Source: Dermacentor variabilis (lineage: Eukaryota; Arthropoda; Arachnida; Ixodida; Ixodidae). From it: 64,000 nucleotides of DNA. A program made the translations under genes and the position numbers. Shown here piece after piece: positions 27,046 through 28,759 of this stretch. Numbering within the stretch: the first letter of the stretch is position 1; each line of letters starts with the position of its first letter. The DNA is taken from NCBI RefSeq assembly GCF_050947875.1, contig NC_134574.1, forward strand, positions 106,917,469-106,981,468, written 5' to 3'. Under the pieces are notes generated by a model, which saw only the letters and a list, made by a program, of their open reading frames with translations, made no database searches and had not been told where the DNA came from.

Positions 27046-27094
27046 CGCCTTGCTTGTCGAGTTCCACGATAGTTTTGACACCAGCGTCCGATGC
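27046..27094 (-). CDS. SNAP25: SNAP-25 exon 4B (49 nt, alternative to 4A)
   Basis: This minus-strand exon reads ASDAGVKTIVELDKQG plus one base. It has the same length and phases as exon 4A, 8 of 16 identical residues and several conservative changes (I/V, R/K, L/I, E/D). The zero-layer Gln is kept. The residue before it changes from Glu to Lys, and the Ala four residues before the Gln becomes Glu. DAG-KT also resembles the SNAP-23 version of this segment. The donor is gtaagg, as for 4A. The acceptor is weak: an A-rich run (gacaaaaaaaaatccag) replaces the pyrimidine tract, with a CTAAC branch-point-like motif about 54 nt upstream (27148-27152). A weak acceptor fits regulated splicing. Only transcripts can show use, but an intact frame, conserved core residues and both splice sites argue against a dead copy. 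Confidence 0.85.
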
Positions 27095-28710
27095 CTGGAT
27101 TTTTTTTTGTCAAGTGCGAGGTGACGAATGGCGACAAGTGTGCGAAAGTTAGATTTTCCGAACGCAGCGTCGCACATTAACCGTAGTATTTTTTTTTTTT
27201 AATCGTACGGGCGTTTGCAATGAGGCATGGGTGTGTGGAGAAGCAGCGTGTAATAGGCCAAGCAGACAAAAAAAGAAAGAAAGAATAGTAATAAAGAACG
27301 CAGGCCCGAAAAGTGCGTAAAACACAGCCCCGGGAGTGTTGACCGAAGCAATTCAAAAATTGTGACGCGTCGCACCCCAGCCGAAGTGAAGAAAAAAAAT
27401 AACAAGCAAACCAAAGAAAAACACAAGGAACACAAGGCATGGCCGGGCGAAATAGGCGTGCGTTCGGGTGGCAGACGCAGTGCAGGTCCGGTGCGCAGGC
27501 GGTGTACGTGGTGCAGGACAGCCGAGCGCAGGAACCAAGGTGTGGCGAGGGCAACCATGAAAAGAAAACAGAAAAAAAAAGAAACAGAAATGCGAAACTG
27601 AGGAAACGAGATAAAGAAAGAGCCATTCTCTTCGCTGAGACCAGGCAAAGTACACAACGGACGCGCTTGCGTAGTGCGTAATATTCCTGCGCTATCAGTT
27701 GTAGCAGACAACGCGATAAGGAATTTTTGATGAAATTATAGTGATAAATAAATCCACTCGACGAACACCTACGCGACGGTTATTCTCGCAAAAAGAAATA
27801 CTCTGCGCCTGCCTACAAAGAAAGCACACTGGGGTTGAAAATTACAATTCCTGGTTTTTACACGCAAGAAAACAAAAAGCCACGATTCGATTATGAGGTC
27901 CGCCGCAGGATTAATTTAGACCACCTGAGGGTTATTTAACGTGCACCCAATGAACGCTAGGCGGGAGTTTTTTTCTTTCTTTCATTTTTCTGCATTCCGC
28001 CTCTGCCAGAATGCCGCCCCCCGTGGCTGGGGTCGAACCCGCGACCCCGCGCTAGGCGCCGCAACGCCACAGCCAGTGAGCACGACTCCAAATTTGACAA
28101 CTGATTACGAGCGATGGGATTGACCTCCCAATCCTTGCAGACGGCGGTTAAGCTTGCCGATAGTTACGTGCAAGAAAAACTGCGGCAGGATGGCGAGGAG
28201 CGCCCTTTAAAAGCACACCTGAGAAGGACATTTCGAGCGCTGTCGGGCACACCAAAACACCCGCTCAGCGACAAACGCGTTTACTATCAGTTCCCATTGT
28301 AGGATTTGCCACTCAACTTGCGAAGCTAATCTAGCGAAAATGTCCTCCGTAATTAAAAAAAAACAAAGAGAAAACGTTACTGCACTACGCAAGCAGACGA
28401 CCATCGGCACACGCTGAGGCAAGTAGCTGAAGGTGCGAATGTCAACACAGGAAGACGAAAAAAAAAAAATGAAAGACAAGTCGTCACTCATTTACGGCAA
28501 GAAAACGACAAACGATCAAAAGGCAACTCAAGTGGCTCAAGCAACAAAAGTGATACGAGTACACTATACTGCTACGACATTGCAAAACTGTAGAAAACAA
28601 AATGCGAGAGGAGAAAGAGGAGGAGGAGAGGTGCAGCGCTCGTGCGGGTCAGAAACCCCAAGCATGGCGTCACGCTGGCCCGAGCGTGACGTAAGAGGCC
28701 CAGTCCTTAC
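27095..28710 (-). other. SNAP-25 intron between exons 4A and 4B
   Basis: A 1616-nt interval separating the two alternative 49-nt exons. It contains one SINE in the same orientation as the gene (27878-28083) and several homopolymer tracts. I see no obvious complementary pair of the docking/selector type used by the fly Dscam gene, but one could not be excluded by eye. The minus-strand ORFs at 27177-27711 are pyrimidine-rich and look spurious. Confidence 0.75.
27878..28083 (-). mobile_element. SINE between the alternative exons 4A and 4B
   Basis: It has the same organisation as the copy at 22962-23197: tRNA-like head at the right end (box A GTGGCTGTGG, box B GGGTTCGACCCC on the minus strand), body with TTATTTAACGTGCACC, and tail near CGATTCGATTATGAGG. 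A T/C-rich insertion interrupts the body. No clear target duplication. It lies about 630 nt downstream of exon 4A on the gene strand. Confidence 0.8.
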
Positions 28711-28759
28711 CTCCTTGTTCGTCGAGAGCAACTAATGTTCGTATGCCAGCTTCCTTGCT
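28711..28759 (-). CDS. SNAP25: SNAP-25 exon 4A (49 nt, canonical variant)
   Basis: This minus-strand exon reads SKEAGIRTLVALDEQG plus one base, which matches the central Qb-SNARE segment of fly SNAP-25 with at most one difference. The glutamine of DEQG corresponds to Q53 of the human protein, the ionic zero-layer residue of the SNARE bundle. The acceptor is a good pyrimidine tract (cttccccctcag) and the donor is gtaagg. The exon enters in phase 0 after exon 3 and leaves one base (G) that joins AG of exon 5 to make Glu, giving DEQG-EQLDRIEE. Its 49 nt matches vertebrate exon 4. A second exon of identical length and phase (4B) lies 1.6 kb downstream. Confidence 0.93.

Follow-up and report, generated by a model that had tools for sequence, protein, structure and literature searches.

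Two copies of exon 4 in a tick SNAP-25 gene, with a predicted effect on the synaptotagmin-binding face of the first SNARE helix

Introduction

Vertebrates diversify SNAP-25, a core part of regulated secretion, through alternative exons 5a and 5b. In the excerpted text of PMC2581893, these exons are described as absent from Torpedo and Drosophila, and the choice between them changes part of the first SNARE helix together with what follows it. Exon 4 has no occurrences in that excerpt. Likewise, no published description of an alternative SNAP-25 exon 4 was found among the literature matches listed, which comprised titles and the starts of abstracts and left subscription journals mostly uncovered.

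The contact between SNAP-25 and synaptotagmin has been characterized residue by residue, as described in excerpts of the articles cited in this paragraph. Residues K40, D51, E52, E55, Q56 and D166 of SNAP-25A are important for the primary interface with the C2B domain of synaptotagmin-1 (PMC8967716), and V48 also sits in this interface (PMC10911398). The D51A/E52A/E55A changes in SNAP-25 weaken C2B binding (PMC4878868), and the synaptotagmin clamp was lost when five changes in SNAP-25, including K40 and E52, were combined with five in synaptotagmin (PMC7220375). Mutating the interface of SNAP-25 can affect its binding to SNARE partners as well (PMC10911398). The sole differences between SNAP-25A and SNAP-23 at or near the interface are K40Q, L47I and V48T, and airway SNAREs that contain SNAP-23 reportedly function with synaptotagmin-2 via the primary interface (PMC8967716, PMC9258623).

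Results

The window, by which we mean the whole stretch of DNA that was analyzed, comprises 64,000 nucleotides of contig NC_134574.1 from the tick Dermacentor variabilis. Exons 3 to 6 of a SNAP-25 gene lie on its minus strand. Exon 3 (41483..41524, 42 nt, AG/GTGAGC borders) encodes the peptide SLERTRNMISLCEE and ends in phase 0. It is followed by exon 4A (28711..28759, 49 nt, SKEAGIRTLVALDEQG) and exon 4B (27046..27094, 49 nt, ASDAGVKTIVELDKQG), both with AG/GTAAGG borders and separated by an intron of 1,616 nt (27095..28710). Exon 5 (25871..25988, 118 nt) encodes EQLDRIEED...CVCPCQ, and exon 6 (5523..5651, 129 nt) encodes a peptide beginning with GKEFKEDASTWKANEDG; each has AG/GTGAGT borders. 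The remaining introns measure 12,723 nt (exon 3 to 4A), 1,057 nt (4B to 5) and 20,219 nt (5 to 6), giving a genomic span of 36,002 nt for exons 3–6. Intron 5 additionally holds two frame-keeping linker exons on the same strand, a 12-nt microexon giving NPIDA (21626..21637, AG/GTACGT) and a 39-nt exon giving VLVRAEEVAMTLT (6980..7018, AG/GTAAAT).

The 4B form of the window matches D. albipictus isoform X4 and D. variabilis isoform X6 across exons 3–6, and the exon 4B peptide is identical in these two isoforms and in D. andersoni X3. The D. albipictus 4B and 4A proteins (P0001 and P0032) scored 73.8 bits against the Pfam SNAP-25 domain PF00835 (cut-off 25) and 20.7, below the cut-off of 26.8, against the SNARE model PF05739. 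The assignment to a tick-like SNAP-25 gene made in the initial annotation is supported. When the end peptides of the D. albipictus, D. variabilis and D. andersoni proteins were compared with the window, nothing convincing turned up for exon 2, exon 7 or the last exons (best E 0.41). Neither a third copy of exon 4 nor a second exon 5 of the vertebrate 5a/5b type was found in the window, and scanning it for Rfam families and tRNAs returned no match. The site of duplication indeed differs from that of vertebrates, as had been proposed, with exon 4 duplicated here and exon 5 there (excerpt of PMC2581893).

Several repeats were also observed in the window. Three inverted repeats (1973–2205, 2613–2873 and 30449–31410) have arms of 114–145 nt and are mobile-element-like; in one long example the arms are 98% complementary and lie 5 nt apart. 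Between 4A and 4B, a minus-strand stretch at about 27980–28075 contains GGGTTCGACCC, in which ARAGORN finds no tRNA and which we take to resemble a tRNA-derived SINE of the kind present in tick genomes. Upstream of exon 3, in what is presumably an intron, lie long microsatellites together with a tandem array of an 18-nt unit (45910–46100, 59729–59876, 60763–61018 and 61846–61989).

Exons 4A and 4B are of equal length and the same phase, and are identical at 8 of 16 residues and 29 of 49 nucleotides. The coordinates, lengths, phases and residue identity originally given for this duplicated exon were all confirmed. Joining exons 3-4A-5-6 or 3-4B-5-6 produced an open frame. Skipping both copies (3-5-6) led to a stop after 12 exon-5 codons, and including both (3-4A-4B-5-6) led to a stop within exon 6, which reproduced both stop predictions behind the earlier claim that exactly one copy is needed. 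Mutual exclusion of 4A and 4B thus follows from the frame as a prediction, and is consistent with the records examined.

A 16-position exon-4 profile was built from 47 distinct exon-4 peptides, with tick proteins (recognized by name or sequence) left out. When both strands were scanned, covering 71,736 open frames of 48 nt, 4A scored 47.3 and 4B scored 36.8, while the best other open frame reached 7.4. Given this gap, the likeness of both exons to exon 4 is not a matter of chance. Among 1,017 segments of 49 nt bordered by AG and GT or GC, 567 of which are open, the two exons ranked first and second and the third scored 4.6.

The pyrimidine tract of the 4B acceptor is poor, with a pyrimidine fraction of 0.27 over 15 nt versus 0.87 for 4A. 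A search of 25900–29600 for RNA pairing that might enforce exclusion returned inverted repeats (longest 25 of 29) that are mostly A/T-rich runs. One pair flanking 4B (26199–26215 / 27336–27352, 17 nt, 82%) comes from a single genome and was therefore not accepted as evidence for a selector RNA. The 1,616 nt separating 4A from 4B are too long for steric exclusion to be likely, and we infer regulation at the 4B acceptor. Regulated use of this weak acceptor would set the 4A/4B choice, and splice products with neither or both copies would be lost through the frame.

Tick records carrying either exon were collected by region searches. The search with the 4B form (a 40-residue region) gave 64 proteins from 66 candidates, and two further searches contributed the best 120 of 393 proteins (398 candidates) and the best 120 of 978 (988 candidates). 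The combined set of 236 proteins, in all of which the exon-4 segment is readable, is not a survey. Among the matches listed in the first two of these searches, 54 are tick SNAP-25 sequences (15 of them placed in ticks by sequence), 26 with 4B and 28 with 4A. Named 4B proteins came from six genera (Dermacentor, Rhipicephalus, Amblyomma, Haemaphysalis, Ixodes and, for the soft tick O. turicata, Ornithodoros), so that among the matches listed 4B is found in hard and soft ticks alike. Both forms were present on equal-length records in at least seven tick species, namely D. albipictus, D. variabilis, D. andersoni, A. americanum, R. microplus, H. longicornis and O. turicata. 4B was additionally found in Ixodes ricinus and A. 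maculatum, and one 4A came from a source labelled Amblyomma cajennense.

At least ten 4B and at least five 4A clusters of tick-like sequence lie on contigs of 0.9–2.2 kb from a source labelled "lgn", which we take to be assembled reads, and the ten 4B clusters join 4B to exon 5. These contigs are far shorter than the 36,002-nt span of exons 3–6 and hence almost certainly represent spliced RNA. They are the better evidence for use of 4B, since the named isoforms are mostly automatic gene models. Both the 4A and the 4B form are made, as indicated by the short-contig clusters and the isoform pairs. The initial annotation had allowed that 4B might never be joined to exon 5 or might be absent in relatives; it was instead found in six genera and in ten clusters joined to exon 5.

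A non-functional or rarely used 4B, whether splicing noise or a decaying duplicate, would account for the poor acceptor tract and for the presence of at least nine distinct 4B peptides in ticks, whereas tick 4A does not vary among them. We consider this explanation highly improbable. The 4B frame is open, its donor is consensus and its profile score stands far above the next frame (36.8 versus 7.4), and the 26 listed tick 4B proteins from six genera, together with the ten clusters on 0.9–2.2 kb contigs, contradict it unless all of these records are assembly or annotation artefacts.

Tick SNAP-25 varies at other places as well. The NPIDA and VLVRAEEVAMTLT linker peptides lie just after the cysteine-rich stretch and occur singly in tick proteins, and both are present together in P0014. 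In the tick proteins P0001–P0057, P0094 and P0132 there are two N-termini (MAA/MQD.. and MV..) and three C-termini (SNVVR, SNESR and SNKLR types), encoded by terminal exons outside the window, which combine with either exon 4. The tick gene thus looks like a combinatorial one. Coupling of 4B to one C-terminus was considered, as SNV[VL]R ends occur in 9 of 10 short-contig 4B sequences versus 2 of 4 readable short-contig 4A sequences, and was set aside given that the sample is too small and shaped by the query.

Exon 4 corresponds to residues 39–54 in the published numbering, with agreement of the letters at 40, 47, 48, 51 and 52. We take S39, G43, T46, L50 and Q53 to be core-layer positions, with Q53 as the zero layer. 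The glutamine at the place of Q53 is present in both copies, in line with the initial annotation. Across the nine distinct tick 4B peptides listed, G43, T46, L50 and Q53 are invariant, as are V48 and D51, and S39 is replaced by alanine in seven. The lysine at position 40 is lost in all nine (Q in seven, S in one, T in one), residue 47 is I in seven and L in two, and the glutamate at 52 is replaced by K in seven and by H in two. An earlier suggestion that the swap tunes the center of the Qb helix is too broad, as four of the five presumed core-layer residues are kept and the changes fall mostly outside the core, including residues 40, 47 and 52, which published work places at the synaptotagmin contact. 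With most of the presumed layer residues kept and residues 40, 47 and 52 changed, 4B would retain zippering and change the charges that face synaptotagmin. Our favored reading, held with moderate confidence, is that the tick SNAP-25 gene has two copies of exon 4, one per in-frame message, and that the choice between them is predicted to alter the synaptotagmin-binding face of the first SNARE helix while leaving the core largely intact.

A SNARE helix by itself does not fold and does so only within the complex. The exon choice may be real yet act mainly through the assembly or stability of the SNARE complex or through other partners (syntaxin, VAMP, alpha-SNAP, Munc18), and not through synaptotagmin, an explanation that we judge unlikely but worth weighing. 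The Dermacentor 4A and 4B peptides differ at 3 of 5 interface positions, 1 of 5 layer positions (S39A) and 4 of the 6 remaining positions, so the interface shows no excess of changes. The replacement of S39, a presumed layer residue, in 7 of 9 listed tick 4B peptides likewise favors this explanation. Against this stand the retention of G43, T46, L50 and Q53, and the change of residues 40 and 52, in every one of the nine. The shift in partner binding seen with SNAP-25 interface mutants (excerpt of PMC10911398) would also fit an effect on partners.

Isoform pairs differing in exon 4 were also present outside ticks. Among the matches listed in the 236-protein set, 21 protein pairs are identical outside the 16-residue exon-4 segment; P0188/P0195 was dropped for a one-residue difference, leaving 20. 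At least 17 pairs fall within one named species at equal record length, covering at least 12 species: five ticks, two insects (Copidosoma and Bacillus rossius) and five molluscs (Mercenaria, Haliotis, Pomacea, Babylonia and Littorina). The Haliotis pair is weak, being a two-residue change, and without it at least 16 pairs and at least 11 species remain. Like the tick pairs, the insect and mollusc pairs are equal-length isoforms from automatic annotation that differ only within the exon-4 segment. The exon-4 choice is thus not confined to ticks, and the view of it as tick-only was not sustained. The substitutions themselves vary. Both insects have SHEVGMKTLVMLDEQG, which is unlike the tick 4B substitutions and keeps E52, and the mollusc variants read SQDVG.. 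in Mercenaria, Pomacea and Littorina and AEDAG.. in Babylonia.

Five insect gene models contain two exon-4-like segments in tandem. 4A precedes 4B in Exocentrus (P0066) and Aphis (P0067), 4A precedes a third type in Cotesia (P0065) and Cloeon (P0220), and the third type precedes 4B in Choristoneura (P0163). As gene models and not RNA evidence, they suggest a possible genome order. In the third type, residue 40 is E and residue 52 is H; the peptide reads SEEAGAKTLHNLAHQG in Cloeon, SEDAGGQALHMLSHQG in Choristoneura and SEDVGANTLMMLDHQG in Cotesia. A Cloeon 4B form (P0209) has the same record length as P0220; with this form beside 4A and the third type, some insects seem to carry three exon-4 copies. 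In horseshoe crabs, the proteins P0050 and P0071 of Tachypleus and P0086 of Limulus are of 4A or 4B type, and their differences extend over the whole sequence, pointing to separate genes that each have a single exon-4 type. P0222 combines arachnid-like flanks with SQDVGAKTLVMLDEQG, a possible 4B type beyond ticks.

In 20 of 49 BLOSUM comparisons, the 4B of other animals lay nearer to tick 4B than their 4A did; by identity, their 4B was closer in 15, tied in 19 and farther in 15. These counts, and the 11/16 identity of soft-tick 4B to tick 4A, would be expected of a tick-only event without wider meaning, with tick 4B derived from tick 4A and independent events behind the insect and mollusc pairs. 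We regard such an event as quite possible, while leaning slightly against it. In a simulation that derived tick 4B from tick 4A by independent changes, with the changed positions held and only 16 residues to compare, the observed resemblance to the 4B of other animals was reached with P of 0.004–0.05 for six of seven tick peptides and 0.45 for O. turicata. The low values, and the presence of SQDVGAKTLVMLDEQG in P0222 with its arachnid-like flanks, argue against a tick-only event.

The peptide SQDVGIKTLVMLDEQG is common to amphioxus, a crinoid, a clam and a brachiopod, with a single exon-4 form each in amphioxus and the crinoid among the matches listed, and SKDAGIRTLVMLDEQG is common to vertebrate SNAP-25 and the annelid Dimorphilus. 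This sharing is compatible with a switch of the synaptotagmin contact that dates back to early animals. According to this proposal, an ancestral gene spliced a neuronal, SNAP-25-like 4A and a general secretory, SNAP-23-like 4B; arthropods and molluscs kept the one-gene switch, ticks took it furthest (basic residue 52), and vertebrates and horseshoe crabs split the forms between genes. We consider it doubtful. A separate candidate sign of single origin, the 12/16 identities between Rhipicephalus 4B and one gastropod-like 4B, was not upheld in the general comparison.

Discussion

Our preferred reading remains a choice between two exon-4 copies that alters the synaptotagmin-binding face of tick SNAP-25. 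A 4B helix, in which residue 40 is Q, S or T, residue 47 mostly I and residue 52 K or H, would have a weaker or altered contact with C2B. Release driven by the 4B type would then be less clamped and its calcium coupling less tight, properties that would suit non-synaptic secretion, for example of salivary granules. A tissue split is predicted, with 4A at synapses and 4B in secretory tissue. K40Q and L47I may cost little, since SNAP-23 with both residues is reported to function with synaptotagmin-2, and a basic residue 52 is not general, as insect 4B keeps E52. In view of these two points and of the lack of enrichment at the interface, the case for a changed grip rests mainly on residue 52.

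An exon-4 swap that alters synaptotagmin-contact residues would offer a natural experiment on clamping and calcium coupling. In ticks, exon-4 choice is a testable route by which one gene could serve both synapses and salivary secretion. The exon-4 isoforms are already in automatic annotation, and studies of SNAP-25 in ticks, insects and molluscs may unknowingly have used one of several forms.

SNAP-23 (PDB 1NHL) resembles tick 4B in having Q40 and I47, each present in seven of the nine listed peptides, and K45, present in eight. It is the product of a separate gene and carries V48T; D51 and E52 are both retained in it, in contrast to the K or H found at position 52 of tick 4B. Its identity to tick 4B is 8–10 of 16 residues versus 9 of 16 to tick 4A, and it is not nearer to 4B overall. 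The complete SNAP-23-like triple of K40Q, L47I and V48T was not found in the nine tick 4B peptides, all of which keep V48. Arthropod Dscam exon clusters, as outlined in the literature matches listed, resemble tick 4A and 4B in being tandem homologous exons used one per message. They differ in having dozens of copies, whereas tick exon 4 has two, with no selector RNA structure found at 25900–29600.

Vertebrate exons 5a and 5b are, as in tick 4A and 4B, tandem duplicates of a small internal exon of the SNAP-25 gene, one of which is used; unlike tick exon 4, they form the next exon, which encodes the segment following the zero layer up to the cysteines (excerpt of PMC2581893). The described splice diversification of SNAP-25 is that of vertebrate exon 5, and exon 4 constitutes a second switch elsewhere, in ticks, insects and molluscs.
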